Of a stretch of 64,000 bases of DNA, positions 83-53,520 are shown piece by piece (positions within the stretch are counted from its first letter, which is position 1; each line of letters starts with the position of its first letter). The position numbers and the translations under genes are program-made. The stretch spans positions 7,477,116-7,541,115 of the forward strand of contig RPFO01000080.1 in NCBI GenBank assembly GCA_009746045.1, written 5' to 3'. This DNA comes from Mesostigma viride. Its lineage: Eukaryota; Streptophyta; Mesostigmatophyceae; Mesostigmatales; Mesostigmataceae. The notes below the pieces were generated by a model. It made no database searches. It had not been told where the DNA came from and saw only the letters and a list, made by a program, of their open reading frames with translations.

Positions 83-3000
83 CTTGGTGCTACCCTTGTC
101 CGTGTATGTGAAGCGCATGATGTGCAGGATGAGCAGCGGCGGAAGCTGGTCCAGTTTGACCGCTTTGGAGGCCGCCGTCTCGCCCCGGGACGAGGAACTC
201 CTGACAGGGTGACGAACGGACCAGCGAGAGATATAGGCAGATAGGCAGACAAGTTAGCAGATAGGCAGACATTGGCAGCTAGGCAGATAGGCAGATAACT
301 AAGCCTTACGGCCGATAGGCAGATAAGTTAGCATTTAGGAAGATATTGGCAGCTAAGCAAATAAGATAGCAGCTAGGCAGACAGGTCATCAGCCGCGGGA
401 CGAGGAGCTCCTGACGAGGACGATGAACGGACCAGGCGAGAGATTTAGGCAAGTAGGAAAATAGGTCATCAGCCGCGGGAGGAGCTCCTGAAGGATGGAT
501 GAGAGATAAAGGATGGATGAGAGATAAAGGATGGATGAGAGATGAAGGATGGATGAGAGATGAAGGATGGGTGAGAGGATGAGAGGAAGGAGCATGGAGG
601 ACGTGACAGAAGGAAGGATAACGGAAGACAATAAGGTTGCCTAGCGGCTAGCCATCAGCCAACGAGCTCCGGAAGATGGATAGGCAGATAGAAACCTGCA
701 CCAATACAGCTCCCATGTTGCCTATTTCCGCCTCTCTTGCCTGTTTCCGCCACTGTTGCCTATTTCCACGCACACCACAGACACACATTTCACACCGAGG
801 CCACGTTCCATCTCACCGGTATCCGTCGAGCTCCTCTTTTGCCTATTTCCACCTACACACACCACTCACACCCCATACACAGTTGCCAGTTTGTTGCCAG
901 TTCATGCTCTCTCACCGGTAGCCGTCGAGCTCCTCTTTCGCGGAGAAGTTTCGCAGCGCGTCTACCACGGTGCGCACCTGTGTGAACGATGCCAGGTTTA
1001 TAGCATCCCATGAGAGAGCAAGAATCCCCTTCGAGAGAGGACATCCCATTCGACAGAGAACATCCCATTAGAGAGCGATTGTCCCATTAGAGACAGAACA
1101 TCCCATAAGAGAAAGAATCGTTTTTCTCTGAATATAGTTTAATTAACGCATGCGGGAAAGATAAGGCCGCCATGCCTTGGCCTGGATGTGGAAGGCTGTC
1201 TGCGACATGGGCTGACTAATTCGATCTGTACAAAGGGTTTCCTGCTCGCCCGAATTTTCCTTGGATGACCCGGTTGTTTATAAGGGTCGGTGGCTATTAA
1301 TTAGCGGTCCGAGAAAATTAATTGTAGGTTTTATACGACTTCACTTGCAAAGATTCGTGTTTGGTTGCACCAGCTGAGGTTAGGTGGGGACCTGTAGGGT
1401 CGGCTGGTTGCTTACCGAATCTTTGGCTGATTTGGGTTATTTAGTGAGTCGTGATTAATTATTGTATAGTGGATTCGGACCGGCCCAAGGGGTCGATGGG
1501 CGCGTTTTATGTTTGTCAGTCTTGGGAACCTTGTACAACTACCTGTACGGTTAACGCACTAGCCTGGGGGTGCGTGGCCACGCTGTTTGTAGTGGCGTTT
1601 TTCAGCACTGTTCAGGCCGGTGTGTGACGCATGCCGGTGTTAATTAATTTAGGATGATGTCAGCTTGTGTGTCGGCGGGCCATGCCTTAAGCAAGCTAGG
1701 CAGGCAATGATCCGCAATTGTTTCTTTGACAATGGCGGCAATGGCCGCCTGTGCAAAATTGCACATTCTAGCGCGGGTTGCATCTGTCTTGTAGCCGAGG
1801 CAGATGGTGGCATGCACAACCGCTAAGTTGTTCGACCAAGCATAGTATAGTTGGTCGTGCAACGGAAAGAAAATTTAAATTTACCCCCATGTCGTTTTCC
1901 CCGGCTGCGGGTCTTTTTGACATGGGCGAAGGATGGGGCGCTACTCCGGCGGTTTCGCCAGCTTCGGCGGAGCTGTTTATAAGTTTCTAAAACAGCTCTA
2001 GTGTCACATCGCAGGCTTGCCACCTTGCGATGGTGCGTGGGACGTGACCTGGACTCAAAAGGTCCCGAACCAGGTTCCTGTCAGCAACGACCTTTTTTTG
2101 TCATAAAATATTTTTTGTGGCGGCAGGTCAGTTGTCCAGCTGCCCCTGCCGAGGAGGGGTGGTTGGGGACAATAGGAGCCGCGCGAGAGTTGCGCTCCGA
2201 AGCTAGAAATTTCCCTATTGCGAGACTCGAGTTGGGGAGGGCGTCTCAGGGAGGCGAGGCTACGCCAGACCTTTGTCGTTCCTTTTCGTCTCAGCACCTG
2301 CTGCGCGGCTCAGTCTATTATGGTGTCGTAAAACCTCTTTCCTTTTTGGACGGTTCCGGAATTGCGAAATGCTGGCTCTTTTTGAGGGCTTGCTTTTGGG
2401 GTGGTCACCGGCTTGTGTCGCATTGTAACCAGCGGGCCCCTGCGGGGGTTAATATAGCCTAGCGCGGGCTGAGTCGCCATTTAAGATGTTGCGACACGCT
2501 CTTTCGCGCACGGTGGTCATGAGTTTAATCGGCGCAATGGGGTTGGCGCCAGGGGGGGTAATTGGGTGGAGGCTTCTTGCTTCCGCGTGCGGATTGAGAA
2601 ACCTTAAGGCCACTGTTAACTGCTGCATTTGTGGCAGGGCTCCACTTATTGTATTCAATCAAATGCTGGTCTTCTTGGGAGCTGAGTGATCTTAATCGGT
2701 TTTCTCTGAATATAGTTTAATTAACGCATGCGGGAAAGATAAGGCCGCCATGCCTTGGCCTGGATGTGGAAGGCTGTCTGCGACATGGGCTGACTAATTC
2801 GATCTGTACAAAGGGTTTCCTGCTCGCCCGAATTTTCCTTGGATGACCCGGTTGTTTATAAGGGTCGGTGGCTATTAATTAGCGGTCCGAGAAAATTAAT
2901 TGTAGGTTTTATACGACTTCACTTGCAAAGATTCGTGTTTGGTTGCACCAGCTGAGGTTAGGTGGGGACCTGTAGGGTCGGCTGGTTGCTTACCGAATCT

Positions 3001-5421
3001 TTGGCTGATTTGGGTTATTTAGTGAGTCGTGATTAATTATTGTATAGTGGATTCGGACCGGCCCAAGGGGTCGATGGGCGCGTTTTATGTTTGTCAGTCT
3101 TGGGAACCTTGTACAACTACCTGTACGGTTAACGCACTAGCCTGGGGGTGCGTGGCCACGCTGTTTGTAGTGGCGTTTTTCAGCACTGTTCAGGCCGGTG
3201 TGTGACGCATGCCGGTGTTAATTAATTTAGGATGATGTCAGCTTGTGTGTCGGCGGGCCATGCCTTAAGCAAGCTAGGCAGGCAATGATCCGCAATTGTT
3301 TCTTTGCCCTCCCTCCCACCCTGGAGGCTTCTTGCTTCCGCGTGCGGATTGAGAAACCTTAAGGCCACTGTTAACTGCTGCATTTGTGGCAGGGCTCCAC
3401 TTATTGTATTCAATCAAATGCTGGTCTTCTTGGGAGCTGAGTGATCTTAACATCCAATTAGCGAGCTCTCAGCATCAGCTGCAACCAGGGCAATTGGAAC
3501 TCAACAAAATGGCGGCATGGAAAAGGTATGGAGGCGAAATACGACAGCCCCAGCCATTGGTGGATGCGGCCACAGTCACTGGCCGATACAGGGACACCCG
3601 CAAGTACTAAAAAGAGGCTATTGACAGATCAGTCACGCCCACTAACGGAGTCCGAGACATTTAATAATAATAATAATAATAATAACAGTAACTACAAGAT
3701 GATGAAGAAGAAGGAGAGGAAGAGGAAGAAGAAGAGGAGGAGGAGGAGGAGGAGGAGGAGGAGGAGGAAGAAGAAGAAGAAGAAGAAGAAGAAGAAGAAG
3801 AAGAAGAAGAAGAAGAAGAAGAAGAAGAAGAAGAAGAAGAAGAAGAAGAAGAAGAAGAAGAAGAAGAAGAAGAAGAAGAAGAAGAAGAAGAAGAAGAAGA
3901 AGAAGAAGAAGAAGAAGAAGAAGAAGAAGAAGGAGAAGGAGAAGGAGAAGAAGGAGAAGGAGAAGGAGAAGAAGAAGGAGAAGGAGGAGAAGAAGAAGAA
4001 GAAGAAGAAGAAGAAGAAGAAGAAGAAGAAGAAGAAGAAGAAGAAGAAGAAGAAGAAGAAGAAGAAGAAGAAGAAGAAGAAGAAGAAGAAGAAGAAGAAG
4101 AAGAAGAAGAAGAAGAAGAAGAAGAAGAAGAAGAAGAGGAGGAGGAGAAAGAAGAATAGTAATAAAAGTAACTGTAAAGTCACACCCACTAACCAAGTCA
4201 GAGTAATAAAATAAATTAAATAATAGTAATAACAATACTCTAATGGTGAAGTCACACCTACTGAGTCAGAAACATCCACTGGCGACTAATCATAATAATC
4301 ATAATCATAATAATAGTCATAATAATAACAAGCAATGTTGATGGTATAGTCACACCCACTAACCGAGTCAGAGACGACGTCCAGGTGTAGGACCATGAAA
4401 GGTTGCACCACGGCGGATGCCTTGGCACCTGCCCGCCGCCACGTGATTGCCACAAACAATGGCAAAAGCCGAAGCGAGGCGATTGCAGGCAAGGACATCC
4501 CGAAGATATAGTGAGCAAATATGGCCACAGGCACCAAAAGTTTCAAAGAACAGGCACATCAACCCTCCAGCAACCAAGCCAAAAAGAAGAGCGGAAGCGA
4601 GGTACGAATAACGTGAACGCACATGTCTGCAGGCACGCCAGGGTGTTGTCGGCATTTTCACACCTGGCAGCGCCGAAAGCCACCTCACAACAAAACAAAC
4701 GACGTACTATAGATCACCTTATGTGTTTTGAGACCCTACTCACTATACCATGGAGACCCTACTCACTATACCATGGAGACCCTACTCACTATACCATATT
4801 ATGGGTGGAGACCCTACCCACGTTGCGTGGAGATGCTACTCAAAGGATGACCCTACAATGCCTGATCACGATGCCGCGCGCTACACATAAGACCCTTCAG
4901 GAACAAGGACCCCTGATGGCTGTCACGACAAGCTGTCACGTATGACCCCACCCCACACACCTAGCAACCGCATGAGGCTGCGCGCGTGCGTAGGTGGCCT
5001 GGCCCTACACCCCATCATGTGATTCCTGACTAGACCTTGAACCGCGCTGCAAAAGCGTGAATACTTCCCCATGTTACCCCCATGGAACCCCCCATTACGC
5101 CCGCATCACCCCCATACTACCCCCATTAATTAAGAACATATCTCAATTGGGAGAATATATAACACATGACCCCCATGTTACCCCCATATTACCGGACGAG
5201 CGCACGATGCTGCGCGCGACGCCTCCAAAGAGCCGCGAGATAATGCTGTGCTCGTACTCGTGCTGGTGGGTGACGGCGGTCAGGTTCTTGCGCCCGCCGC
5301 CCTGGTGGGGGGCACAAGGTATGGGAACAAGTGCCCACCACAACACCCACGGGGACAAAGACCCCGAAGACGAACCATGGGGCACGGAATCCCACAGGGC
5401 CAGGGACACGGGAGAGGGAGG

Positions 5422-5510
<89 letters not shown>

Positions 5511-8500
5511 AATGAAGGGAAAAAAAAGATAAGAGGAAAAACATAGGCGTCGCGACCAAAAAATGTGCCAAGCGACAAATGACGTAAAGAAGTAAGCAGT
5601 GTGACAGATGATGCGGACACGCAAGAGGCGCACATGCACGCGGAGAAAGCAAGAGGCCAGGCCATGACAAGGCAGCGCGCCGTGCGATTCATCAACAGTA
5701 ATAATAGCAATATTAATATTGTTGATCTTTTATTGATACTATTAATCATACTACTATTAATACTAATAATATTATTGCGTGCGCTTACGAATAGGCATAA
5801 AGATTAAAGGCTCGCATGCAGCGCATGCTGGCAGCCAAGCGACCTGCTCTAGTCGCAAGGCAGCCACATTTTGTGTGATGGGATTTCCGCTTCCAAGTGA
5901 AAATGCTGATACGGATTAGCATGTAGGGATTTATCTAGTAGTGGATTCTAGCTGCCTCACAAGTAAGGATGTAGGGCTGAGTTGATTCCAGCTTCCTTAC
6001 GGGTTAAAATGAAGCTCTTGTTGCCGCCGCAGCCCTGACGAAAAATAATGGGTTTCGAGGGGTATGAGACCCCAACATCTCCATTCGCCCCCGCCCAGTC
6101 TGTCTGTGTGCTGTACAAGTGCTGCATGTAACATATGTGCTGCACATTTGGATAGCCCTTATCTATAGCCCTTCGATATTTGTATAGCCCTTATCGATAG
6201 CGTGGGCAAAGGCTCGTTGTCTTAGGGAGCACCTCACCCACACCCACACTCCCGACCATTCTCCTGCCATACCGCGCATGCGCTGCGTGAGGAACGTTTG
6301 GGTGAGGAATGTTGGAATGAGGAGTGTTGGGGTGAGGAATGTTGGAATGAGGAGTGTTGGGGTGAGGAATGTTGGAATGAGGAGTGTTGGGGTGAGGAAT
6401 GTTGGAATGAGGAGTGTTGGGGTGAGGAATGTTGGAATGAGGAGTGTTGGGGTGAGGAATGTTGGGGTGAGGAATGTTGGGGTGAGGAATGTTGGGGTGA
6501 GGAGTGTTGGGGTGAGGAATGTTGGAATGAGGAGTGTTGGGGTGAGGAATGTTGGAATGAGGAGTATTGGGGTGAGGAATGTTGGAATGAGGAATGTTGG
6601 GGTGAGGAATGTTGGAATGAGGAGTATTGGGGTGAGGAATGTTGGAATGAGGAGTATTGGGGTGAGGAATGTTGGAATGAGGAATGTTGGGGTGAGGAAT
6701 GTTGGAATGAGGAGTGTTGGAATGAGGAGTGTTGGGGTGAGGAATGTTGGAATGAGGAGTATTGGGGTGAGGAATGTTGGGGTAAGGAATGTTGGGGTGA
6801 GGAATGTTGGAATGAGGAGTGTTGGGGTGAGGAATGTTGGAATGAGGAGTGTTGGGGTGAGGAATGTTGGGGTAAGGAATGTTGGGGTGAGGAATGTTGG
6901 AATGAGGAGTGTTGGGGTGAGGAATGTTGGAATGAGGAGTGTTGGGGTGAGGAATGTTGGGGTAAAGAACAGACGAGCGGTAGATAAGGAGAGTTTAAAT
7001 GGGAGGGCGGGGGGGGGGGGGGACAGGCAGCATAAGTAACACACAACAGGCATGGGAAATTTGGCCCTGGTCACCATTGATCCAGCTAGGCTCCATCCCA
7101 ACAAGGTAAGCTGTACAGGCGGAATACGTAACTCTTCTGACCATCACCTGCTCCCACTCGCCGTCCTACCTAGTAATCCATTAAATATGGAACTTTCATA
7201 AAAAGGTGCGAATGAGCTTCACAATATGGTGTGACTGATCTCACCATGACCTGCTCCCACTCTCCGTCCTCCTCCGCACTGCCGCCCCCTCTGGCCACCC
7301 CCTGGCCACCGCCGGCAACATCCCACCCCGCCCAGTCGCCATCCCCTCCTCTCCCACTTGCGCTTGTCACCGCTGCATCGCCGCCACCACCCCGGGCCCC
7401 GGCCCCAGGGTGCCGGCTGCGCAGGCGGAGAATCTCTTCGTGCGCCGTGTTGAGGAGGAGGGAGAGGAACTCCTGGGCATCTTCTTGACGCGTGGGCGCT
7501 GCGGCGTGGTGGGCGAACGTGCCACGTGTCGCGCCGCGGGTGCCTGGCGGCCCTGCTTGGCTGCAGAATTGTCAAGGATAGAAAACGTAGGTGCGATAAA
7601 AACCAAGGACGTGGAACCACAGGATAGCATCAAATGTAACTGTAAAAAAGAAGTAAATGAGAGGGACAACTCAATGAGACGGGGACAATATTCACCATGT
7701 TGTCACTCTCCGCCATTTGAAGGCCATCATTGATTCACTACAACGACCACGGGGCTGTGTGCAAGCTTGTGAAGAGATAATCCACAGAATAATCATACAA
7801 GGATGAAGAGGGCACCAACGCCACAATCACGACTCAAGTGTACAAGGATGGAGGTCTGGCTATAAAACCTAGACAATGCTGCACTGGCTCTTACACCCAG
7901 ACAGTATGTAGCAAGATAAGCACGCCTCACTGTGTGACCATTGCGCCAACACCCCACCATGGTACAATATAGTTGATAGCATGACCAAGGCATGACCAAA
8001 TTATATCTATTAGCACTGCATTCATTTAGTTATACCAAAAAGACGGCGCACTTCCCTCACCGAATTCCTTATTTTGTTATACCAAAAAGACGGCGCACTG
8101 CCCTCACCTAAGCCCTGATTTAGTTGTACCAAGAGACAGCGCACTCCCCTCACCGAAGTCCTTATTTAGTTATAACAAAAAGACGGTGCACTCCCTTCAC
8201 CAAAGTCCTTATTTAGTTACACAAAAAAAATGGCGCCCTCCCCTCACCAAAGTCCTTATTTGATTATACCAAAAAGACGGTGCACGCACCTCACCCAAAC
8301 CCTTAATCGTTATAACAAAAAGACGGCGCGCTACACCAAGAAGACTGTGCAATCGCCCCACCTGGGACCCTGGCCGGCGCTCGCGCGGTGCAGCGCGTCG
8401 GTGAGGTGGTGGAACATCTTGGGCGTGAACTCAAACCCGGTCTCCACGCGCTGGATCGTGTCACCTGGCGCGGCGCCGGGCCCGGATGGATACCCCTGCC

Positions 8501-11500
8501 TGTCCGCATGCCCGTCCTGCCCCAACCGCTGGTGCTGCGAGGACGGCGACAAGCTGTAACCATCGCCTGCACTCGCGAGCTGGTGAGCGGCACTGCCAGG
8601 AGGGCCCACGCGGTGCCTGCCATCCGCTGCCCCCGTTGCAACCCCCGCATTCCCTGACTGCTGGCGTCCCGCCCCCCGCCCCTGTGCTGTCATCGCTGAT
8701 GATGCTGATGACGCAGATGATGATGCCGCAGAGGCGGGTCGTCCGGGGGTGGACGATGCCGCAGCCACTCCTCCCCGGCTGGCGCCTCTTCCTGAGCTGC
8801 CGCCGTCGGGGGTCCCAGGCTTGGTGCTGGCAACCGCACCACGGCAAGTGTTGCTGTTGGCGGTGGAGGCGCCGGGGACTTGGTTGTTCGAGGCATCACG
8901 ATCGACGGCTGATGCGGACGACAGCACTTGGAACGCGCTGGCCAGCGCACAAAGGCCATGCAGGGTGGGGCAGTCCTCCTGCGCAGGCAAGAGCGGCATC
9001 CACAAAAACAAAACGCAGCTTTATAAATAAGATAGCTATAGAGAAAATTGATCAAATTAATCATTAGAAAAAGCATGGGATAAACAAGCCAGGCAAGGTA
9101 GCGAGCAGATTCTGAGGGTTTGATCAAGTACAATCGCTCAGGTTTATAAGATGTTACTAGGACCAGAGTGACCGACTACTTCACTACCTGGTGAGCCTAC
9201 TTCTAAACCCCGTAACAGCCTAGACATTCTTATGTTTTCTGATATGCTGCAGCTACATGGCCAACCCAACTCATAGCTTCTACACTTTCTTCCTTCCATC
9301 CCTTTCGGATTCCGCAAGGCCCAAGTCTGCCGTCAAACAGATGGCCTGTAAACAGAGGTGGGCAGATTCCTATCTGAACTTGTTCAGGATCTGACTCGTT
9401 CAGGTCGCGTTGCTACCCTTTGTGTTCCATGCGCTGACGGACCCGCCGTCGAGGCCCACTTTATGACCAGACATGTGCCAACGCACTGTCGCACTGTTGT
9501 GTTGCACAACGCACTGCCGCAGTAGCACCGCTCGTGACGTCACCAGCAGCAGGCGCGATGATGCGAACATGATCATTGTATATAAATGAATCATGTACCC
9601 CCGCATTGCGAATATGACACTGTTGACACTGGTCTCAGGAAACCGTTTGCTCTTTGCTCTGAAACGGGTTCTCATATATATACATACTACTATATATATG
9701 TTTGTTCTAGAAACCAAGGCGAAAAAACCACAGAACATGTGCACTAAACCATATGGCTACATATAAGTGCATTCACAACCAGCATTCATCCACAATCGTT
9801 CCCAAGCTCGCTCAATACCACGAATAGGGAACAAGCTCGTCACAGTCTATTTTGTGTTGGTTCCCAAGCACGCTCAATACCACGAATAGGGGACCAGCTC
9901 GTCTCAAACAAACAAACCACAAAGACACATAGTGTCTATTCTCTACCTACGGTAGTGTCTATCCCTACATAGGGTACAGTCCATCCCTACATAGGGTACA
10001 GTCCATCTCTACATAAGGTCTTGACATCGCACCCACCGGAACTGCTTGCGTCCGCAGGTGCTGCAGCAACCCCACAAAGGGGGGGCACGCCAGCAGCGCT
10101 TGCACCGTCTACAAGGACAGGACAAGGGGGCAGCCGGCAACAATTTCAGGGACAGGAACGTATTCAAGGTCACGGACAGGACGTGGGGGCGTGTCACAAA
10201 CACTTTCTAGGCCAGCAACAACTTTAGGGACAGCAGCAGTCACCGCGCCAGGGATGTATTTGAGATAAGGGACATAATATGGGCAGGTCACGAACAACTT
10301 TAGACCAGGAAACATATTACAAAGGCCGGGGACATGCCAGGGTGGCGCAGGGTCTTAGAGACGCCGGGGGGAGGTAGTTTAGGGGAGGATACCCATGACA
10401 AGAGCCAGAGATATTTTATTCCTTAACCTATGTACCTGAAACGTATGTACCCTAGACAGCATAGTGACTAACCTTCTCTCGGACCGTCCATCGGCCATCA
10501 TGCGAGTCCCCTATCTCTTTCCGGGGAGATAACAGTATAAGTGCTTGTGAGATAACAGTATAAATGCTTGTGAGATAACAGTAGAAGTGCTTTTGTGGCC
10601 AAACCCCTCTCTAGGCCCATCCATCAAGGCATTCGCGACTCACCGCACTCAAAAAGCAGGAGTTGCCCACGTCGACAACCCCATATACATCACTACGGCT
10701 TTGCAAGGCAGCCCCCTACCAAAGGGGGTTGGCTTGCTAGCATGGTACATGGCTATCACCACCCCCTTCTCTAACTCTCCACTTCTTTAAGAACCTTACA
10801 CACGTCATGGCTATCACCACCCCCTCCTCCAGGCCCATCCGCTCTTACTTCAGTTAAAGAAAATATATTCAATTGTGTTCAGGCATACTAGTTTGCTACG
10901 CACCGCGTTCAGGAAGCACGAGTTGCCCACGTTGACAAACCCCCTGGGCTTGTAGTGCACGCGCCCCAGCGCCCCATCCTCCATGCACGCATACAAGCTC
11001 TCCACCAGCGCCGCCGCCTTGGCATCCGTGCTAGCTGCCGCCGCCGCCGCGGCAACTGCCACGCTGTGCCCGCCCCAGGGGGCCACCACAGTATTCTGGG
11101 TCGGTGGATACCCGGGTGCGGATGGGCTGGCTGTTGATGTTGTGGGCGCGATCGCGGTGGCTGGGGTTATGATACCGAAGAGGGAGGATTCCAGACGCAG
11201 GAAGATTCCAAGGATTTCACAGGGGTGGGTGTCAGACTCGGACAAATGGACAGTGACTGGGGTTGCGGTTCCAACGAGGGGCGGGTGTCAGGCATCGGGG
11301 GGTAGATATATGGATGTAGATGCCCGCAAGGACAAGGGGAGAGAGAGGGGGGCGCAAGGGGACAGAGAGTGGGAGACAAGGGGACAGAGAGTAGGGGGGG
11401 GGCAGAGAGTCAGGGGAAAGGGGGCAGATCAAGGGGGGGGGAAAGGAATGGATGCCAAGTAAAAGGGACGGATGTCAAAACAAGAAGGATGGGTGACAAA

Positions 11501-14350: not shown

Positions 14351-16888
14351 CTGCAGGGTTGAGAAGTGGCTCGAAACGATCGTGCGGGTGCAGCGTTGTG
14401 GGAGGGTGAGCGCGTAACAGGGGGGCGGTAGGGCAGGGTGAAAGGGGGCGGTGACAGGGGAAGGTGACAGGGCGGGATGAGTGGGGATGATGCAAGGGGG
14501 TGAACGGAGGGGTGCAAAAGGAACCTTGGGGGGGGGGGGGGGGAATGGGGTGGAGAAGGCCTTAAGTTGGGTTGGCTTAAGTTGTGTTCCCGCCTTAAGT
14601 TGGGTCGCATAGGATTTCGGCATTCTAAGTTCAAAGTAGTTCATAATAGTATGTTTTAGTATACTTATTTCAAATTAGTACAATGTAGTAGAGCCACTCA
14701 CACCTTCAGTTGGGTTGGCCCCTCGAAAACCTCGAACCCAACTAAGGCGTGAATGACTGTACTGCACTGATGACAAAGAGGAGGTAGACAGCACTAGAAT
14801 AAGGTGAAGACTACCGATCATTAAATGGTTTCTTTGTTCCATCGTCCGCCCCTACGTAAGTAGCTTTCAAGGCCAGAGGCCAGAGATGTCAGAACTGAAA
14901 TACCCCCCTAATGTTGTTATGCCGCCCTAATGCTATCCATAAACGCCATCATCAAGCTAAGGTCCATTTTCCAATCCACTAGAGCGTCCAGTTCCAAAAG
15001 CAGCGTGGAATGTTTCCCTTCATTACTAACGGTGAAACTCTGCCACGGGGCACAAGGGCGTGACGTTGAATCAAATGTACCTGACCAGGTATGGCTGCCA
15101 CATTCTGGGCCGCCGGGTTTCGCTTGTCGACGCCTAATTCCGATTGTATTTCCCCCAAAGCAAGAGAGCCGAATTCGATTAACTGCGCAGCAATCAATAG
15201 AAACAAGCGAGTTGCGACCATGCCAAATACGTCGTGGTAGGAGAAAGCGCGTCAAGACACGGCGATGACACCCGTAGGGCAAACTCAGCGTGCATCGACA
15301 TATCAACACGTTGCACACATTAGATCAAACACATATGAAACCAGTGGCAGCCAGTGTCGGCCAGTTTCTATAAACGTACAGGAGTGTCCATTATCAAGGA
15401 GCGAACAACGGTGACCACATGTGTGCAATTTCAGCGCTCCCCGGGAATGACTCTGACACAGCTCAGAAGCGTCGACTTTCCGTCAAAAATCGCCTGCAGC
15501 TTGAGCTGCTAGAAGGCAAACACTCCTGCAACCGTCTAACGAGTTCGGTATGCTTGGTATCCCCTACAAACAATTGATGTCAATGTTAGTATTGAGCCGG
15601 CGAACCTCGTGTGGTCTTGTGCCCAGCTGCAATATTCAGGTGCAGTGATTTTCCTGCCTTTTTGCCTGCACGCTATCAACACAGACCACAGATTCCTGCG
15701 GGTCTCGCTATGTGTTCACGGCGGGCATGTTAATATAATGAAGTAGACTAGCTACCGTGACGGCAATTATTAGGGCAGCAGTCGGCTCACTCGGCTGTCA
15801 TCAGCTTCTGTAACCGGTCGTCTGGAAGAGAGAGTTTTACTGTACACTCGCAGAATGCGGCTTGAGTAGTGACCCGACAAGATGCCAGATGGACGTCTGC
15901 CGGGAACGCTGGAATCAATAAACGTGATCAGAATTGCAACCAATCAAATAAGTTCACAATAGTGAAAATTATCACGAAGTATCACATTACTAGTACGAAG
16001 TCACCAGGGATAAGATTTGGATCCTGCATCGTACAAGGGTGCGAATTCCGATCTGTTGTGATCCTAGGAATTGCACAGTACAGTAAGAGTCTGACACCCT
16101 GTACACTCGGGCACTAGTCAAATACATATGAAAGACCGACGGGAATCACTCGGCCACTACACAGTACCATAAGAATGAATCTCTGCTGCTCGTGTGCGGC
16201 GTGGGACACAACATGTACAACAACAACCCTGTAACAGTAGCGCAGTAGTGTGGAGACCGGAGTGGATTGCTTAATAATTTCATTATTCGCACGTGAAGTT
16301 TTTATTACGCACGCAAGGGAAATCTATCGCAGGGCCAGCAGGGCTATTACTTTCGTGATAACAGCTACTGACACCAGTGATGTCGACAAGTGCTTTAGTG
16401 CCCGGGAAATGGAGTGACCATGCAATGCAGAAAAGGAAAATATTATAAAGGAAGGAGAGTAGCCGTCGGATATCTAAACTACGCCATGGATATCTAAAAA
16501 TGTGGCTTGCACACTAGCCAACCGTGGGGATTTTACTAGGAGAACAACAGGTTGGTAACCCCCCTACGATGGCAAATATCGCACCAGGTGGCGAGACACT
16601 TTTCTTGCAACCTGCAATTACACCATGCCTGCCAGGCAGGAATTCGGACATCCTGTGGCCTTTCCCCTGCGTCCATGTGGCATTGCCAGTTAGCTGGATC
16701 TGTGTCGTTTAGCTAGAAATGCACGAGAAGGGGGCAGGTTGACATTCTGGACGGCCAACTCAGTGTCGTGTAGCCTCGCTTCATATCCGACTGGCGGACA
16801 AGCGATGTTCTCATCTGTAAAGCAAACTGAGTGACACAAGCAAAGCCTACTCATCTGGCGGGGGATTTACTTCGAGCCTCGTACGCGG
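14351..16888. other. Divergent intergenic region, USP gene to GT29 gene
   Basis: Contains a poly-G run near 14526-14545, copies of an 18-bp TIR-like motif (14560-14765) and otherwise AT-balanced sequence. A minus-strand reading at 14979-15221 begins with a hydrophobic signal-like stretch (MVATRLFLLIAAQLIEF), but no partner exon or family was recognised. The promoter of the GT29 gene, and probably the first exon of the USP gene, should lie here; I cannot place either. Confidence 0.5.
14700..14765 (+). repeat. TIR-like palindromic repeat, copy 1
   Basis: CACACCTTCAGTTGGGTTGG and AACCCAACTAAGGCGTG face each other, followed by AATGACTGTACTG. The same structure with the same trailing sequence occurs at 54079-54152. 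Extra half copies (CTTAAGTTGGGTTGG, CCTTAAGTTGGGTCG) lie at 14560-14612. Likely termini of a small DNA transposon or MITE. Confidence 0.7.
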
Positions 16889-22800: not shown

Positions 22801-24989
22801 CTAATCAATTAACCCCTTATCAACCCCCCAATATACCCCCCCCTCCTCCCCCCCCCCTCCCCCGTGTAACCCCCTACTGTCCCAGGCGGCTACACGGTGC
22901 CCTGCGTCGCCCGCTCCCCCGGCGGCCGCTGCACGCGCCACGACGCCAGCACGGTCGCGCGCAAGATGCCCCCCCGGCTGCAGGCGGCGGCGGACGCCAT
23001 GCTCGACAGCGTGCGGCCGCTGACAATGCTGGCGGGCGTCCCCGGCGACCCGCACCGCCACCGCAGCGTGCCCACGACGGGCTTGTACTGCATCCTCGTC
23101 GCGCTGAGGGAGTGCCGGAGCGTGGACGTGTATGGGGTCGGGGCGGGCACGATCAATCATCGTGATGTCGGGGACTTGGAGTATTTCAAGGACCAGCATT
23201 TCCGGGGGTGGGACGCGCGGCATGACGTGGAGGCCGAGCGCGCGGTGCTTCGCGTGCTGTCGTCCAAGTGGGTCATTTTTTGCCGTTTTCTACCCTATGT
23301 ATTGAGTAGACTGTCTACCGAGTAGTACCCCTGGGTAGGTAGGTGCTTTCCCTGCTGTCCTCCATGTAAGTCTGGTAGTCAGCCTAGTAGTAAGTCTGGT
23401 AGTCAGCCTAGTAGTAAGCCTAGTAGTTTATGGTGTCTATTTTTGGGCTTTACTGACTACTGATAAGTACCCATGGGTGGGAAGGTGCTTGGCGTGCTGT
23501 CGTGCAAGCGGGTGCCTTGTTCTGTCGCTTCTTGGCATTGTATCCGTGCATTGGTCGTGTGTGTCAACATGTGCGTGCGGTCGTGCATGTGGGCCATCTG
23601 TTCCCCTATTCGCAGTTGATGTCGTTAGCAGCCATCATTCGTCCCCACTGCCGTCATGCTTATTATTGCATCGCCACCTCCTGCTGTGCCAGTGGTTACG
23701 TGCCCCCCTCCCCCTCCCCCAAGCCTCGGAAGCCCTTTCTGCTGTGCGCTATCGTCCCCGTGGTGTTTTTTTTTGTTCTCTCTGTTTCCGTGCATTATGG
23801 GCATGTGTTGTGTGGATCGTGGGTGGGTATTGCTGATGATGGTGGTGGCTGTCGTCCAAGCGCGTGCTTTGTTTTGTTGCTTGTAGTAGTATTTATTCAT
23901 GTTGTTGACCTAACTGTTTTTATTGGTTGTACTGTCACTATGCGGCCTGACATCGTCCAAGCAAGTGCTTGGTCCCTTGGCTGTTCTGCTGGTACGTGTA
24001 GGATGCTGATGGGTTGACGTTTTTTGCGGTTTGTCATTCTGTGCGTGCTGTCGTTCAGTTGCATCGTCCATTCCCATTTTCCTGTTGATCGAATAGGACC
24101 GGGCAAATTAGGGGGGGGGGGTTTAAGCCTGTGCTTACTCGGGTGCTTGCTTGGTTAGCAGGAATAGTGGGTGATGGTATGCTTTTGGTGGCAAGAAGGT
24201 AAGGAAAGGGAACGTTCCAGGGAGGAATGATCCTGCCAAAAATAAAGGTATCTCCCGATTTTCTGGCCTGCGCTGGTTGTCTCCTTGGTATCGTTGGTGA
24301 CATGGCAGTGGCAAACCCTTCCGCTGCACCTGTACAAATGGTGTGTTGTTAGGTGATTCCACTTGCCAACATAGTCCACACCGGTTGCGTGTTTGTACCC
24401 TTCTAACGCTGCCACTGTATTTGCATGCCCTGCTCCAAGTGATGCATTCGATAGGTTTTGCACCAAGTCTACTAGTGCTGAAGCTTCTATATGTAGTCCA
24501 GGGGTGAAGCTCTCTATTATTTGTATCTTTTATGTCCCAGAGGAAGGCTTGTCGGTGGACCTGCTTTCTTCAATTGCTGTGCTTGTTTCTGAAATCTTGC
24601 CTCTTGTGAGTTGCTGCACCTTGCTACTTGGGTTTCATACATTCATGTTGGCTCAGAATGCCTTGAGTACCGGCTTCTTCTTGGATGTAATATGGTATCA
24701 CTACAAAGTATTGAGTATTGACTTTTGACCTCTTACTGCTTTTTTGCCCGAATAACATGTCCGCCGTCACGTGTCTATTAATTAATTAATTAATTAATTA
24801 ATTAATTAATTAATTAATTAATTTTTAATTGATTAATTAATATGTCCCTCCATTTCATGCAGATTTTGGAGCGCCATGCTACCCTTCCGAACAGGCGAGC
24901 TGCGGTGGCATAATCCCATTGAAGGGGCTATTGGTGTCAACGAGGATCTGTTTAGCGGGGCACCCTGCACCAGTGGGATCGGGTGCTAG
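16889..24989 (+). CDS. GT29 sialyltransferase-like glycosyltransferase
   Basis: Predicted Golgi type II membrane glycosyltransferase of 307 residues. Exons 16889-17143, 18013-18172, 22886-23267 and 24863-24989 (stop TAG); all junctions keep phase. The start ATG gives a basic tail (1-16) and a membrane segment (about 17-36). The L motif begins at C54 (CSVVGNDSSMRNSSLGHLID..VYRMNFAP) and continues across intron 1 into GYATDVGRRTHTMC. The S motif is PTTGLYCILVALREC..VDVYGVG (about 201-224); a VS-type HDVEAE follows at 251-256. The stem is very short. Green-lineage GT29 members exist although sialic acid is doubtful there, so the donor sugar is unknown. Intron 2 (4.7 kb) carries an LTR relic and a foldback. 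The last exon is chosen by phase only and is the least certain. Confidence 0.85.
17560..17740 (-). repeat. Dispersed repeat fragment, copy 1
   Basis: In intron 1 of the GT29 gene. Its minus-strand reading (HMPPLRAMCYVSSQRSYA) matches a plus-strand reading at about 52600-52755 (HMPLLRDMCYMYSQRRYV), with nucleotide similarity over about 90-150 bp in inverted orientation. The conservation suggests a fragment of a coding mobile element; the family was not recognised. Confidence 0.65.
19424..19655 (+). repeat. CTCTAGG heptanucleotide array
   Basis: About 33 nearly perfect 7-bp units in intron 2 of the GT29 gene, fading at both ends into CTTGGCT/GGATCTT variants. It has the period of plant-type telomere repeats but not their sequence. 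Confidence 0.95.
20416..21042 (+). mobile_element. LTR of a retrotransposon (627 bp)
   Basis: Starts TGTTACGGCC and ends CTTGTAACA, giving the TGTTAC..GTAACA terminal inverted repeat typical of LTRs. One base later comes TGGTATCGGAGG, close to the initiator-tRNA-Met primer binding site of plant Copia/Gypsy elements. No second LTR was found downstream, and the internal region is only short sequence running into a foldback, so this is a truncated or rearranged element. It lies in GT29 intron 2. Confidence 0.75.
21044..21056 (+). promoter_or_regulatory. Primer binding site
   Basis: TGGTATCGGAGGT directly follows the LTR. It differs by one substitution over the first 11 bases from the TGGTATCAGAG signature complementary to plant initiator tRNA-Met. 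Confidence 0.65.
21509..21569. repeat. Perfect 21-bp hairpin
   Basis: Arm 21509-21529 (CGGGGTGGACCGTTGCGGCG plus G) is the exact reverse complement of 21549-21569, with a 19-base loop. It lies in the internal part of the LTR element, 165 bp before the larger foldback. Confidence 0.9.
21735..22275. repeat. 242-bp-arm inverted repeat (foldback) containing a gag-like reading
   Basis: Arms 21735-21976 and 22034-22275 are almost exact reverse complements around a 57-base spacer. Both arms encode, outward to inward, the same basic helical peptide beginning MSQPVA and ending DPISLAKR (Lys/Arg/Glu/Ala-rich). Its place after an LTR and primer binding site suggests the start of a gag region that was inversely duplicated. 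The right edge shows no second LTR. Confidence 0.9.
24763..24842 (+). repeat. TTAA microsatellite with LINE-like junction
   Basis: GTCACGTGTCTATTAATTAA followed by about 12 TTAA units, ending just before the branchpoint region of the last GT29 intron. The same junction occurs at 49833-49855 after a LINE fragment, so this may be a 3' tail of a 5'-truncated insertion. Confidence 0.65.
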
Positions 24990-29600: not shown

Positions 29601-32600
29601 CTAGACTTTCCCGCGTTCACATGGGTTTAGCACGGACACAATGTGGCCAAGTGTTCCTCGGGATGGTCACACAGCCCAGCCCTTGTAGAGTGAGATTGTG
29701 GGTTTAAAGTTTAACGTGAGCAGATGTAGAGACTTGCCTGGCGCCAAAGCGCAGCGTGGAGAGCGTCTCGGCCACCTCTGAGCTGCTGGGGCTCAGGCAG
29801 CACAGCAGCGTGGTCTTGGAGTTGCCGCCCTGTTCCCCGCGACGTTGTCCAAAGCAAGAGACAATAAAAGTGAGGAACACGCAAAGAAACGAAGGAAGAA
29901 TGGCAAGGGCCTATGGAACGTGAGGGGGAAAATGAGGAAGAAATGCGAGGCAACAATAATGCATGTCATGTGAGATAACATGGCACAATGATACAAGAGC
30001 AGCTGTCACACACAAAAAAACTTAAGCTACGTTCTGGGATCCAGGAAACAGGGTCAGACTCATGCATTCGCCGACTCTGCATTTTCAGAAAGGCAAGGAC
30101 ATGCATGGGACATTGAAAGATGCTGATGAATTTTCCTGGAAATAGCATCATTGACCCAAACACTGATTTCCAGCCCATGCAGATATAGACAGCAAGTACG
30201 TGCCCCCCACCATATCCCAATTTGGTGTTGTTTTTTTACATCGTTGACATTCGACAAGGCTATACGCTTGTCAACAGCAAGTCTATAGAAAACAACGTTC
30301 ACATCAATGAAACATTATGCACATAATGAAATGGGTATTCCTATATAGGACCATTCATGAATATGTCCCCGTCCATGCCTGAAAGAGATGCCGAGCGCTG
30401 ACCCAAGGGCATATATTGAGTAAAAAGTCCACCACTTTACCGAAATTGCTGGTGAACTGTGCAGATGCCAGCTCATACTTGAAATGCACGTCATAATTTC
30501 GGTTTCAATGCCCATGAACCCAGAATACCATACATCTCTTAATCGCCATACTCACCAGGGACTGCTGGAGACACCTGCACGGTGAAAATTCAGTAAGCAG
30601 GAAGACAACGTGCATGAAAAACACAAGGTTAGAAAAGCAGACAAAGGAGTCGTCCTAGCTGCTGGGTAGCACACGCAGGGCAGAGACCAAGCATTCTCCT
30701 GCGTATAATTAGCATACTATTCAATCACTTTGACGTTGCGTGTAAAATTGTAATATTGGAATGTCGGCTAGTCTCAAAGCACCTGGCCTTAGGGTGTCGA
30801 GTCCATATCATGCATCATATGGCCCATTCCGTTGATTACTTTCTCAACAAAGCCACTTCTCATCATGAGCAAAACAGCAGGCTATCCTTCCGCAAGTAAA
30901 TACGAGAATAGACAAAGCAGCAGGCACGGAAGCAGTGCTTGCAATGAGGTAGCTGACAAGCCAAACCAAACTGGACTTGCTACCCAAACCCAACAGGACT
31001 AAGACTTCATAACGTCACTTCTGCAGCACTACGCACATCTGCCTATGTGCAACTAACAAATGACTAGCTATTCTAGCTTAAAAAAAAAAAAAAAAAAAAA
31101 AAAGCTCGTTCATATACTCTATGCCCATCTTAACCAAGATTCAACTGACCTTGTCAGCTTGGAGTCCCTGTATGGGATATGTGTGCTGCGACCTGAGACA
31201 GCAAACATGAACAAGTCATTGATCACAAGCACCGTCCAGGTGTTAGCAATGCCCAAAACTCATCTATATGCCAGAGAAACGCATGTGCTGCCATATCCTA
31301 TCATATGCTACCATGTGATCACTTGATACCTGGCACTGGAAGCCATCAATGACATGCAACATGGCCAAAGTATTATCACCTGCCTTATATCACGGGCTAC
31401 TAGCAAAGTTGCATTGCTGGCTACCAGCAAACTTGCCATCTGATGGACTGCATGGACATGCTGGCCTGATGGCGCTAGCTCCGCTTCTATTATTGACCCT
31501 TTCACGAGCAGAGTCATTCAAAAGGCATTTATCAAGCAAACAATACTCTACTCGGGCTGCCATGGCATGTCGTTGGGAAGTACGATCAGGATGAACGTCC
31601 CTTCTAAACTTCCCACCTGTTTGGGAGCACCTATAAGGCACGGGGCAATGACTCACCGCCGGATAACCCCGAGATAACGTTCTCATAAGCAGATAGACTC
31701 TGGTTGATGTTGGTGGTTTGCCGCATCCATCACATATGTGCTACAGTATAACCTACCCCATCCACCACCCAGTACCCACCATCCGACAGCCCTGAGATCA
31801 CGTTCCCGAGTGCGGATAGACTCTGGTTGATGTTGGTGGCCTCCAGCAACGTGCTGCCTTTCGCGCCTGTCTTCTTGCACTGGGGACCCACGGGCAGTGG
31901 CCAAGCGCAGGGCAGTATCCGAAGGAGCAGGCATATAGCATTTTAATGGTTGAAAGAGATTGCAAATGTTTCCTGCTCATTAATCGAGGTTGATTTGAAG
32001 GCCATTAACATCCAGTAGCTTCAGATGACTCCGTTTGGACATGATGGAGCTCACTTGGGAATGCTTTGCGCCCTTTACAACGTAGGGTCGCTGACCATCC
32101 TTGCCGCTGCACAGTAGCAGGCCCCAAGCTTGCTTGCTCGGCCACGCAAAAATGGCCACAAAGTTTGGGGTCTCATAAACTTTATATTGTCTTGTCAGAG
32201 CCAGATGCCAGGCAGTATGTGGAAGTAAAATCGAAAAAGAATGGCAGGGTATCCCCCAGGCAGGGGCCCAGTTGCTCTATTTAAGAATAATATATAAAAA
32301 ATAGGTAAACCAATAATCATAGTAATAATGGCAACTCACTTTTTCTTCTCAATCTGGCATGCCTTACCTTCTCACTCCCTGCCAGATCCACCATGTAGAG
32401 CCGCCCCGTGGTCACCATGCCGTCGTTGCGGTTGATGGCCTGGCACATGATGATGAAGATGACGTGCGAGCGGCTGCTCTTGGCATTCATGTCTACACTT
32501 GGAGAATTTTGATGTACATGGCACCATCAGTGTGGCCAAGCAAGATGGGCTGGTCAAGGGAAAACCGGCTATAAATAAACATCATTTTGACGAAAGATAT

Positions 32601-35054
32601 GCACCAAGATATGGCTTGGGACATGGTTTCCCACACTAGATTTTATATTAAATTTAGGCAACTTAAGGTAACTAAATTTAGGCAGTGTGTACTGCTTGAG
32701 TTTCAAGAGAACTTTTTACCCCTACTGCGGACATGCAATGCCGCTGCATGTCCAAGAGAACTGACGCCCATTCACATAGAGCCCACTCATAGACCTATGA
32801 CAACTTTCTATTCTCCTCACCCTCCTACCCATCCAGCCCACCCATACAAAGGAAAATCCCTACAATACCGAGCTTCCCAATGGCACTTCATCTGCGGCAC
32901 ACCCAAGAAGCCTGCAGCATGCTGGCCTCCCCAGGAACGGAGAAAATTTAAAACGACCGATCGTCAAAAAAGAAACAAAATTGATTAAGAGGGACTAACA
33001 AGAATGAATAACAAGGCACCACATATAAACACAAAATGTCAACCATTGTCTCCTATATTATTTGGCCAGCGGGAGGATACTTGTGCTGCTCGTGGAGCGC
33101 GCGGCCGTGCACCGCCGGATGAGCTGCAACAGCTCCTGGCTGTCTTGCACGGGGGCCTGCAGGGGGCACGGGCATGCAGGGGCCATGCAGGCCATTGCCA
33201 GCGAACAGCATTTTGAGCCAGATACAGATTACAGCCATAAGCAAATTTAGCTTCAAAGAAGGCTACTGTCAGGAAGCAGAAATGCATTGCCTGGTTACCA
33301 CAAATACCATGACAATCCATTACGCAAGGATGCAAACAACACCATGCTCGACAACGCAGGTATGCCAGATTGCCACACCACAACACCAACTGACCACTGA
33401 TTAGGACCAAGATATTCACTGCAACATGTTGGATTCCAGGTCATGCGGTTCAAGCCAGCGGGAAACGCGCAAGGTGACCATGCTACAAGAATTCCCACAC
33501 CATTGGATTTGGATTCCTACCATGTAGACACATGTTTTTTTGCAGAGCTGATGACATGCAAGGGCCGACGACTGCTTTTGGAAGCTTCACTAGGCTTTCC
33601 CGCTTATCAACGAAACTGGCACAGTTGACATAACAGCGTGTGGCAAAGGCACGGAGGTGAGATATTGATGCCAATTTAATTTCAGCGGAGCACACACCTC
33701 GACAGCCCCAACTATATTGGCCCCAGCATTCTTCGATTCCTGCACTTGGAGGTTGTCGTTCTCTGGGCGCATCAGGTCCTTGATCTTTTCATTGTAAATT
33801 TCAACCTGTCATAACCCGGAACATGGCACAACGTCAAGCTTTTTTCCAGCTAATTCCACGGAAAATTGCAGCAAGGAAGTTAGCATCAGCAGTAACAAGA
33901 AGCCCTTCAGTGGCAGCAACCAAGCAACAGCACACAGGCAGGGACTTTCTGGCAACGCATGTATGGTGCTCCCAGGCACCACAGCAACTTGACATGAGCA
34001 CTTGATACTAGAACTACTTGCCTTACACGTGCATTTGCCATGGCTACACCATTTTAAAGCCATTCTGCGAGCTGTGGCTTACCGCAGTAAGTTTAATTGC
34101 CGTGACAACATTCTTCTCAGCAGCCATGGCTTTGGCTCCAGCAAATATGGCCGAGCATGCCCTGGGAATGATTCCCAGCTGGGAGGGCACTGTGAGGTCC
34201 CCCTGTCCTTCCACACACACAGGTCAAGAAAGGTAGATGTGTGGGTGTCCATAGCAGGTGATGTGGTTAGAAGCTGCAGAATTCAAAATATCTTGATTAT
34301 CGAATGAGGCAGCATTTCAAGTAGTCAAGAACGCCCAGCAAAGAAAGACTGATAGTAGAAGACAGCCACAAAACCTGGAATGAACGTACCAATGCGGAAT
34401 GCGTCTTCCCGCTGCCAGTTTGACCATACGCCAAAAATGATCCATTGTATCCTTCCAAACAAGCTGGGCACAGTGGGGCAGATGGGATCGGCATTGAACA
34501 ACAGCATCTTTTGAAAGGTCAGGCAGCTTGCCTGGGGTAGATTACAAATGCAGCTAAAGTCGTAATGACACAGCAACGTTCACAGTCACACATAATCCAC
34601 TTTGCAATCTGAAAGGTTATCCGATGGCATGGGACTCGCGTTTGCTGCTGCTAAAAGAAAAATTATATTCAAGGCTCTTACCTTCTACTGCTTCTGAAGC
34701 GACGTAGTCGAAAACTGCGGGACCAAGAGGACCGGAATGGCGTTTAGGAATCAAGATTGAAATATGTGAGCCCACTTCGAAGTAATGAGAGTATGCAATT
34801 AGCGAACCTTAAACGCAGCATGACCCTGGTATGGAATTTTGTCGTTCAAAGCATTAAATCTCGTTACCTTCTTGTTGAGTTGCAGTTTCCCCGAACACGC
34901 AATCAAATGCGAACAGTGACGCCTCGGCAGCATCATCATGGAGCGTGAGAGTTTGCCGATCAACTACAGTAACGGCGGTGGATGAGCCAAGCTCAACTTC
35001 CCGTTTGTTCCGGGGACGAACACGGATTGCAACAGTTACGGTCCCGCGATCCAT
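26618..35054 (-). CDS. Kinesin-1-like heavy chain motor protein
   Basis: Microtubule motor of 606 residues. Exons on the minus strand: 35054-34868, 34714-34682, 34463-34390, 34202-34083, 33805-33698, 33156-33081, 32492-32368, 31879-31780, 31192-31150, 30574-30556, 29829-29738, 28554-28415, 27757-27600, 27163-26618; phases join throughout. The motor starts [17 protein letters not shown]-loop GQTGSGKTH is at 87-95, then [11 protein letters not shown], switch [11 protein letters not shown] (about 200-209) and switch II DLAGSEK (235-241). [33 protein letters not shown] and [21 protein letters not shown] follow; the linker suits kinesin-1. The short tail has coiled-coil segments ([39 protein letters not shown]). 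Oddities: exons of 33 and 19 bases, GKTHSAL where GKTHTM is usual, and a GC donor after the exon at 29738. The tail is shorter than animal heavy chains. Confidence 0.88.
28745..29265 (+). repeat. Degenerate tandem repeat, about 30 bp
   Basis: Repeats of ATGTTCATCCAGCTCAAACT followed by GGTCGCTTAA, preceded by an inverted set (GACTAGTTGAGGATGAACAC). The opposite orientation of the two halves makes the block partly self-complementary. It lies in the kinesin intron between exons 28415-28554 and 29738-29829. Confidence 0.8.
31081..31103 (+). repeat. Poly-A run
   Basis: Some 23 consecutive A in the kinesin intron just left of the exon at 31150-31192; pyrimidine-rich on the transcribed strand, downstream of that exon. 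Confidence 0.9.
31652..31716 (-). repeat. Partial copy of a kinesin exon 3' end with donor
   Basis: Reads [19 protein letters not shown] then GTGAGTC on the minus strand, matching the real exon at 31780-31879 ([19 protein letters not shown] then GTGGGT). It lies about 65 bp downstream of the true donor. It could be used as an alternative exon only if an acceptor exists in the short gap, which I could not support. Confidence 0.85.
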
Positions 35055-36425
35055 GACGCACTTCGCTATTTCTGTGAAGAGGACGGCGAAGCAAAGCAAG
35101 TGGTGAACAACTACGCTGGAAAGAAGGAAACGCAATGCGGAACTGCGGTAAGCTGTCTGCAGGAGTTCCAATTCTTGCAGCGAAAATCTTTTGCACGTTG
35201 AAGCTGAAAAAAAAACAAGAGAACTCGTAGGAATATACCGTTCCCTGTTTTCCCAACACAGTATGAAAAGCGAGAAGAAACCATAGTATGGAGCAACTTA
35301 CATTCTTCACTAACAAGATTTTTTTTCCCAAGGCAATATAATCAATAGCGAAGAAGAGATTATAATGCGCTACGAATATGATCTATATAGTGCATTTCCA
35401 CTGCTGTTTTAAGCCGGGCAACTCCCTGACCTGAAGCTTCAGGCCAGCTGGCCTCTTCCTAAAAAAATCCACACGATCCTTGTTAGCTCGACATTATCTC
35501 AGCCACGAAATGCAAGGTATAAATCCCGAAGGTTAATGCACGACCTGAAACGGGAATTCTGCAGCAACGTCGGGGGGGATAAATAATTTGTAGAGTCACT
35601 CGTGAAACTCGGTGCTCGGGCAATTTTCAATGAATTCGCTATGTACTGTGCCATGGACTTCGTGCACCGCCCGTCGGACCAGAAAGGCCGAGTCCAAGGT
35701 CTGCTAGTGTCAAGTGTCAACAATGTGCCAAACCCCCGCGCCGCCCCCAACGTCCAGATTGCCGCGAAATATCAAGATTAGATAGATATTTCGGGGAAAT
35801 GGGTATATTTTATTATCCAATTATGGACCAGAGAGGTGAAAGGGGAAATGAGTATCAGCGAATCCTAAATGAAGGTGGAAATATCAAGATTCAAGCCTGA
35901 TCTGGTGGTCAGGGAACTTGCACCGTACGCGTGGCTAAAACACTGCTCGGCGCTCACGACCAAGATGTCACGTCTCCAAGCTGGAATATCATTGATACTC
36001 TGCACGGCCGCTTGATAAGGATGTCGTACGTGGACTCGTGGTCCGCCATCAATCATTTAGAAATTTCTACGAAAAGTTTCGATGGTTCAACTAAAACTAT
36101 GGACACGTTGAACGCCTGCCGATCTCTGTTACTAACGCTTGCCTTCCGTTTCGGCGTCGCGTCGATGGTCAGTCCCGCATCAGTGGCAAAGAGATGCCAC
36201 GCCATTTTGGTGGCAGCAAAACCCACAGGCAGTAACAGGCAGCAGCGCAGCAGGTAGCAGGCCAGCAGCACAAGAGCGTGATAATGCTAGCGCGGTGCCT
36301 AGCTATGGGGGCCATGTCACCAGCCCGGCTGGCCGCGTAGGTTTAGGCCTAGCAAATTCTAATTGAGCGGGCAGTTTTTGAAAACACTTATGCCTATAGG
36401 CCCCCTGATTTTTTAATCCCTAGCC
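35055..36425. promoter_or_regulatory. Shared divergent intergenic region, kinesin and stromal peptidase
   Basis: The 1.37 kb between the two divergent start codons must hold both promoters. No clear TATA box or known motif could be placed with confidence. Minor readings here show no family resemblance. Confidence 0.45.
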
Positions 36426-48340
<11,915 letters not shown>

Positions 48341-53199: not shown

Positions 53200-53520
53200 C
53201 TAACTAGTGGCATGCCTATAGGTACAATTAGTTCTCCTTGCGAACGTGAGCAGCATAGCCCACACGCGGACGTGAGCAGCATAGCCCACATTTACACGTA
53301 AAATTGACCGCGGCATGTTGGTGACCGTGCCGTCCAGCTTTTCGGCAAGGTCAGCTGTGAGGGTCCATGTCTCGGCCCCATACGTGAGAACAGGAAGGAC
53401 CAGGACCTTAAACCGGTCCTGTTTCTCTAGCTTGCCCAAGGGCTTGTGCCACAGGGCCCTGTATTGGCGTAAAGCGTGCCAGGCGAGGGAGATACAGTGG
53501 TCAACGTCGGCCTAGCTCGC
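53200..53520 (-). mobile_element. LINE reverse transcriptase C-terminal fragment, opposite strand
   Basis: Minus-strand reading DRFKVLVLPVLTYGAETWTL then ADLAEKLDGTVTNMPRSILRVNVGYAAHV matches the same protein segment as 49125-49800 but with different sequence, so it belongs to a related copy or family. Truncated on both sides. Confidence 0.75.

Follow-up and report, generated by a model that had tools for sequence, protein, structure and literature searches.

Direct copies of exon-intron junctions inside the introns of Mesostigma viride genes

Genes, repeats and junction copies of the window

The 64,000-nucleotide stretch of Mesostigma viride DNA analysed here, hereafter the window, holds the gene for the chloroplast stromal processing peptidase (SPP, family M16) together with a USP-like, a kinesin and a GT29 gene. 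Ten SPP exons were placed by tblastn with the full Mesvir1 Mv07330 record, and their joined translation, which has a Pfam M16 match, is identical to that record; we take the Mesvir1 records to stem from an assembly of a strain other than NIES-296. The USP-like label follows an earlier reader and a PF00443 match to the left of the window, the GT29 gene has a Pfam PF00777 match, and kinesin family matches lie at 32353–32508 and 34396–34479. In the excerpts of the genome report that we draw upon (PMC6947507), the strain NIES-296 assembly is described as 442 Mb built from PacBio and Illumina data and an optical map, with a mean intron length of 1142 bp for the species and repeats filling 30.1% of intron space.

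Tetranucleotide satellites extend over 49979–52210 (GATG, 558 units, 100%) and 60895–63299 (GAGG, about 620 units, 93%). Two 613-bp direct repeats at 1116–1728 and 2694–3306 (99.8% identical) are separated by about 965 bp and accompanied by a second pair of 129 bp, identical to each other (2567–2695, 3322–3450); together they resemble a short non-autonomous LTR element, located in or next to the USP-like gene. The segment 21735–22275 is a 541-bp palindrome (92% inverted self-repeat) with one short coding-like stretch on both strands. Two further coding-like pieces, at 49143–49304 (+) and 53308–53511 (−), have in common the string LTYGAETWTLT, which we take to be typical of LINE reverse transcriptases.

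A first-pass annotation had proposed that introns of four genes in the window carry degraded copies of the adjoining exon edge and its splice site. Such copies are real, and most of the places named were confirmed (Table 1). The six copies assigned to 42236–42700 resolve into an array, which counts seven copies with the real junction and whose last copy has GT changed to CT; the two assigned to 44224–44440 are 95-bp units within 44291–44448, followed by a degraded third; and that at 41290–41344 is a single donor copy. The acceptor-side copies placed at 46180–46745 were likewise recovered as exon 8 edges, and the kinesin (31652–31716) and USP-like (10632–10685) copies are clear. Three claims held in part. 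One copy stands within 45680–45912 and a second, near 45880–45912, is weak; in the GT29 gene, where copies had been listed over 23340–23960, the first two are clear and further ones up to 23960 weak; and the USP-like segment 8036–8345 is a minisatellite with a likely donor in its first unit and an exon part that is almost nil. The copies in SPP introns 1 (39876, 39934), 5 (43236) and 8 (46931, 47114) were absent from the earlier list.

Table 1 Genes and junction copies in the window
Feature	Coordinates	Strand	Remarks
SPP gene	36426–48340	+	tblastn, exact joined translation, Pfam M16
SPP exons 1–5	36426–39700, 40465–40541, 41152–41235, 42094–42235, 43118–43177	+	
SPP exons 6–10	44082–44223, 45491–45592, 46724–46782, 47405–47565, 48282–48340	+	
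Exon 1 end and donor copy, SPP intron 1	39876–39910; 39934–39952	+	second copy shorter
Exon 3 end and donor copy, SPP intron 3	41293–41349	+	single
Exon 4 end and donor, six further copies, SPP intron 4	42289–42704	+	73–79 bp units
Exon 5 end and donor copy, SPP intron 5	43236–43261	+	
Exon 6 start copy, SPP intron 5	43907–43922	+	acceptor side, AG lost
Exon 6 end and donor copies, SPP intron 6	44291–44552	+	95-bp units at 44291 and 44386; degraded copy 44515–44552
Exon 7 start copy, SPP intron 6	45388–45413; 45280–45305	+	with AG; second copy weaker
Exon 7 end and donor copy, SPP intron 7	45722–45759	+	single, GT changed to AT
Exon 8 acceptor-edge copies, SPP intron 7	46175–46674	+	at 46175, 46453, 46623
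Exon 8 end and donor copies, SPP intron 8	46931–47140	+	46931–46946, 47114–47140
USP-like gene, exon end and donor copy	10632–10682	-	real junction 10904/10903
USP-like gene, 47-bp minisatellite, donor-like units	8024–8329	-	starts at likely donor 8362/8361
Kinesin gene, exon end and donor copy	31650–31711	-	real junction 31780/31779
GT29 gene, exon end and donor copies	23342–23513	+	23342–23372, 23484–23513; real junction 23267/23268

Alignment of introns to their flanking exons with shuffled introns as the yardstick, the check suggested along with these claims, was run on the SPP gene. With microsatellites masked, we compared the 40 exon bases beside a junction with that junction's own intron, at a threshold of 13. 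Direct own-intron copies of the exon edge scoring at least 13 were found for 11 of the 18 junctions (donors 7/9, acceptors 4/9); the 1800 shuffled controls had their 99% point at 12.0 and peaked at 14.0; the acceptor copy in intron 2 is a borderline case (score 13, shuffle p 0.03). The other 7 junctions, 2 donors and 5 acceptors, had no copy above threshold. None of 144 comparisons of SPP exon edges with other introns of the gene reached 13 (maximum 12.5), nor did any of 18 with the own intron inverted (maximum 11.5). In the SPP gene model the outermost donor and acceptor are used in 9/9 introns and all copies are skipped, from which we infer that splicing would take the outermost site.

Frequency in the genome sample and the excess at donors

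Outside the window, we sampled places of the kinesin motor family and the CCT chaperonin, picked blind to repeats and forming part of all places matched for these families. Junction positions were set by reading frame and splice motif; some CCT target stretches are shorter than 250 bp, and all donor copies in this sample lie at least 25 bp downstream of the real donor. Before counting, we set aside 7 of 26 pairs of neighbouring exons whose junction was unclear, 4/20 donors and 2/20 acceptors of one batch on their motif score, and L023, L080 and L082, which are second copies of other loci. At a score of at least 13, an own-intron copy accompanied 25 of the 74 donors (kinesin batches 8/19, 6/16 and 6/20; CCT 5/19) and 6 of the 54 acceptors (CCT 1/17), which supports genome-wide, within this sample, the earlier suggestion that a systematic local duplication takes in junctions and adds intron length. 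With SPP included, exon-edge copies were present for 32/83 donors and 10/63 acceptors. The copy rate is higher at donors both with and without SPP (Fisher p = 0.003 in each case), the size of the asymmetry being uncertain because the acceptor rate varies by batch (0/19 and 5/18 in the kinesin batches).

The wrong-intron control, SPP included, gave 24/1880 matches, a count that excludes 20 kinesin donors (the 6/20 batch) and may be inflated, since homologous exons in the sample would add such matches; the inverted control over all sets gave 1/146. That chance similarity, low complexity or assembly error accounts for the copies is hardly credible. The masked, exon-only queries hold against the wrong-intron, inverted and shuffled controls, the copies differ among themselves and are thus not collapsed or repeated reads, the exon positions match a separate gene model, and one gene is carried by two contigs at 99.95% identity (L022/L023), even though the window is rich in simple repeats, long arrays are open to misassembly, and the inner windows of SPP exon 1 gave 16% direct and 17.5% inverted matches, values that therefore represent the noise floor for window scores in GC-rich exons.

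The process need not be aimed at junctions, intron interiors being rich in local direct duplications too: among 40-bp windows from SPP intron interiors, 41% are matched by a local copy in direct orientation and 2% by one in inverted orientation. A 30-bp window test was pooled over the 83 donors and 63 acceptors, with bootstrapping by locus. At threshold 13, direct copies were found for 0.40 of donor-spanning, 0.15 of acceptor-spanning, 0.24 of interior and 0.04 of inner exon windows, the respective fractions being 0.235, 0.066, 0.159 and 0.014 at threshold 18 and 0.076, 0.025, 0.120 and 0.000 at threshold 24. Donors exceeded interiors at thresholds 13 and 18 (bootstrap share at or below zero 0.0065 and 0.047) and did not at threshold 24 (0.91), while acceptors fell below interiors at all three (0.018, 0.022 and 0.005). 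Point coverage by ungapped repeats gave 22/83 donors, 3/63 acceptors and 0.172 for interiors, a borderline donor excess (0.27 vs 0.17, bootstrap −0.02 to 0.20). Point coverage and window tests replaced a slide-the-cluster null, which had yielded 22/83 donors against 6.5 expected and 3/63 acceptors against 3.65; the strength of that result was rejected because donors lie near the stretch edge, where long clusters cannot slide, and the replacing tests give a weaker donor excess. Duplication coverage at random loci was excluded as a background, L002 and L017 being all N, L003 75% N and L008 25% N.

The donor excess bears on an alternative that we regard as unlikely, namely donor-targeted mutation, whereby a transcription or splicing hotspot at the 5′ splice site would copy about −30 to +10 or beyond downstream at a much higher rate than the rest of the DNA, for example through an R-loop or a stalled fork at the G-rich intron start. 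Donor windows above interiors at threshold 13 are in keeping with such a hotspot, as are the G-richness of intron starts (0.44 G in the first 20 bases vs 0.28 at 200–300) and of donors with copies (0.39 vs 0.33, p = 0.037); the failure of donors to exceed interiors at threshold 24, the borderline point coverage and the similar GGG counts (p = 0.10 and p = 0.17 in two tests) are not. G runs as a cause appear weak, with p = 0.09 and p = 0.037 for G fraction in two tests. We likewise consider it unlikely that the 5′ splice site is a genome-wide mutational hotspot in Mesostigma, at which the last 15–45 exon bases and the donor would be copied downstream again and again and introns would grow from the donor end.

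Anatomy, locality and splice signals of the copies

Of 35 donor-copy measurements 34 were used, one being misplaced and left out; they represent 31 of the 32 counted donors and three donors from other genes of the window. The exon part spans 13–55 bp with a median of 29.5, a measure that tops out near 55 bp, in the data and in the simulation described below, by how the stretch was cut; an exon part this narrow is a further point for a donor hotspot. Median values are 16 for the intron part and 104.5 for the lag. Among the freshest copies, the units are 38–155 bp long and follow one another in flush tandem, and clean head-to-tail arrays occur in SPP intron 4, in SPP intron 6 (95 bp), at L027 (four like units counting the real junction) and at L024 and L044 (70 bp); junction copies outside arrays are single or spaced. 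With a tolerance of 15 bases, 12/34 copies abut the next unit.

The remaining 22/34, which are not flush, and an intron part of at most 16 bp in 56% of measured copies would suit a non-tandem origin, through templated filler at DNA breaks, reverse-copied pre-mRNA or a mobile element. Such an origin is nonetheless highly improbable: inverted copies are nearly absent, arrays run head to tail, and units are confined to their own locus, eight of them searched in 356,747 bases being found only at the own locus, a paralogue or a homologous exon. Moreover, simulated tandem decay gives similar intron parts (at most 16 in 31–67%) and flush fractions of 48–68%, though the observed 35% is lower. A search for relatives in prokaryote and viral contigs found none, as expected for an alga.

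The paralogues L024 and L044 carry the same array of 70-bp units at a shared donor position, and past it their introns are 0.45 alike. Units are 1.00 and 0.94 alike within a gene vs 0.84–0.87 between genes; the array is therefore probably older than the divergence of the two paralogues and has since been homogenised or renewed, so that in this one pair we observe concerted evolution within an array. In the first donor array of both L024 and L044, the third unit is partial: beyond its exon part it retains roughly ten bases from the start of the intron, as though units were trimmed at their intron side. At L048, a duplicate of a kinesin acceptor lies 59 bp upstream; the two are identical over the final 12 bases of the intron and the first 21 of the exon, which makes them a good test case for acceptor choice.

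Conservation was profiled over 51 copies at 29 of 67 scanned donors. Identity to the real donor on the exon side is 0.78 at −20 to −11 and 0.86 at −10 to −4, and on the intron side 0.82 at G+1, 0.88 at T+2, 0.88 at +3 to +6 and 0.54 at +7 to +12. The GT is kept in 38/51 copies, and conservation of GT above the flanking bases was not seen in these 51 copies. Twenty-one intact-GT copies lie 38–252 bp downstream of the real donor, with no frame preference (lags mod 3 of 6/10/5); twelve meet a stop in every open frame, and use of the copy would cause a frame shift or stop in all but 4 of the 21. In 15 of the 21 the U1 match at least equals that of the real donor, and the mean match is 6.76 for copies vs 7.05 for real donors (p = 0.014); U1 match alone therefore hardly separates the real site from the copy.

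The retained GTs and the copies that rival their donors in U1 match could point to decoy or regulatory splice sites maintained by selection, for instance for slower splicing or as alternative donors, and selection for decoys had been one of the two causes put forward in the first-pass annotation. We judge this very unlikely. Identity at G+1 and T+2 does not rise above the flanks (0.86 and 0.88), the U1 match of copies is lower on average, and few copies can be read in frame without a stop. The lack of GT conservation and of frame preference instead argues for tandem duplication that is tolerated.

Probable tandem duplication, neutral simulation and known systems

The copies are local, direct and inside their own intron, and usually hold exon and intron bases together. 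We consider it reasonably probable that they arise by repeated tandem duplication of about 40–150 bp across the junction, which is probably tolerated because the exon's outermost site would still be the one spliced. Slippage or unequal exchange would make the units, perhaps aided by a G-rich non-template strand inside the donor. A copy downstream of the real donor would be mostly silent, whereas copies that precede the real acceptor, or that contain a long stretch of exon, may more often be spliced in and so be removed by selection; the frozen exon side would keep old donor copies recognisable. Most likely, the genome duplicates strongly, the copies are a by-product that is tolerated, and splicing acts as a filter that donor copies with a short exon part would pass and in which acceptor copies and long exon copies would tend to vanish.

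To set these data beside a neutral process, tandem duplication was simulated with frozen exons and the interior level matched to that observed. A first parameter set gave 0.29 for donors, 0.27 for acceptors and 0.37 for interiors; a second was adopted for its interior level of 0.24, the value seen in the data. At this setting, windows at threshold 13 gave 0.20 for donors and 0.22 for acceptors, and exon-edge copies 0.26 for donors (0.20 in a rerun of the same settings) and 0.25 for acceptors, so that the observed exon-edge rates of 0.39 and 0.16 lie on either side of the simulated ones. Exon parts longer than 45 bp make up 4/34 observed copies vs 53–64% of simulated ones with 85-bp units and 32% with 45-bp units. 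The donor excess had been considered as an ascertainment effect of frozen exons; this is insufficient alone, because the simulation lacks a donor excess. The same absence is a point for the donor hotspot, and the excess over simulation, the short exon part and the slight G-richness together leave room for a true one.

Several points run against tolerated tandem duplication as formulated above. The neutral simulation predicts equal donor and acceptor rates, unlike those counted, and far more long exon parts than were measured. Acceptor copies with their AG unchanged occur (L048, L050 and, in SPP, 46453 and 46623), and the contig pairs described below give no sign of copy-number instability over their aligned parts. 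Silent downstream copies also sit poorly with mammalian test systems, where splicing often favours the intron-proximal donor when two are equal.

The first-pass annotation knew of no described system of this form. The amphioxus 'mirages', reported for Adh3, the globins BflGb6 and BflGb9, troponin C and PGBD5, match it in the portions of the literature consulted (PMC3087553, PMC3902484), where, as in Mesostigma, minisatellite-like tandem repeats run across intron-exon boundaries, 5′ and 3′. Both also have, going by those portions, splice signals in many of the repeats, units that range from tens of bases to about 160 bp, and homogenisation within an array. From the local, direct, tandem copies and the duplication-rich interiors, we therefore regard the Mesostigma copies as mirages of the amphioxus type and not as functional decoys: junction-spanning direct repeats, tandem arrangement and presence at both boundaries, more often at donors, are all observed. 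As far as those sources describe it, Mesostigma differs in being a streptophyte alga, in the 34% of donors affected outside the window, in the donor bias and in the many copies that are old and degraded; copy-number instability and RNA evidence are reported for amphioxus, and the Mesostigma copies are known from sequence and gene models.

In potato RdRp, as the extract at hand relates (PMC4974935), one boundary-crossing tandem duplication made a new intron, whereas in Mesostigma the intron pre-exists and the copy lies within it, beside the real junction; an intron bounded by two copies of one exon stretch, the hallmark of such gain, was not encountered among the introns examined. With ordinary intronic minisatellites the copies have in common local direct repeats, arrays and apparent homogenisation; they differ in that the first unit is the real junction, so that selection on the exon pins part of the array. 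Junction-spanning minisatellites are already known as amphioxus mirages, and we found no report, in the open-licence literature searched, of junction copies being common in an alga or plant. The new elements are the streptophyte setting, a frequency of roughly one in three donors sampled, the bias towards donors, and exon parts that fall short of those in neutral simulation. What had been a lancelet curiosity of few genes is common and countable in this alga, where junction duplication represents one route of intron growth; the donor-acceptor asymmetry yields a testable rule, and the 21 intact-GT cases form a natural experiment on spliceosome choice between near-equal donors.

Some contig pairs carry the same gene twice and may be haplotypes: C2 and C622 (L022/L023, with the identity given above), and C887 and C1641 (L079/L080 and L081/L082, 96.5% and 98.8% identical). 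No gain or loss of a whole unit was seen where these pairs align. One CCT intron shows a difference of about 3.2 kb between C887 and C1641.
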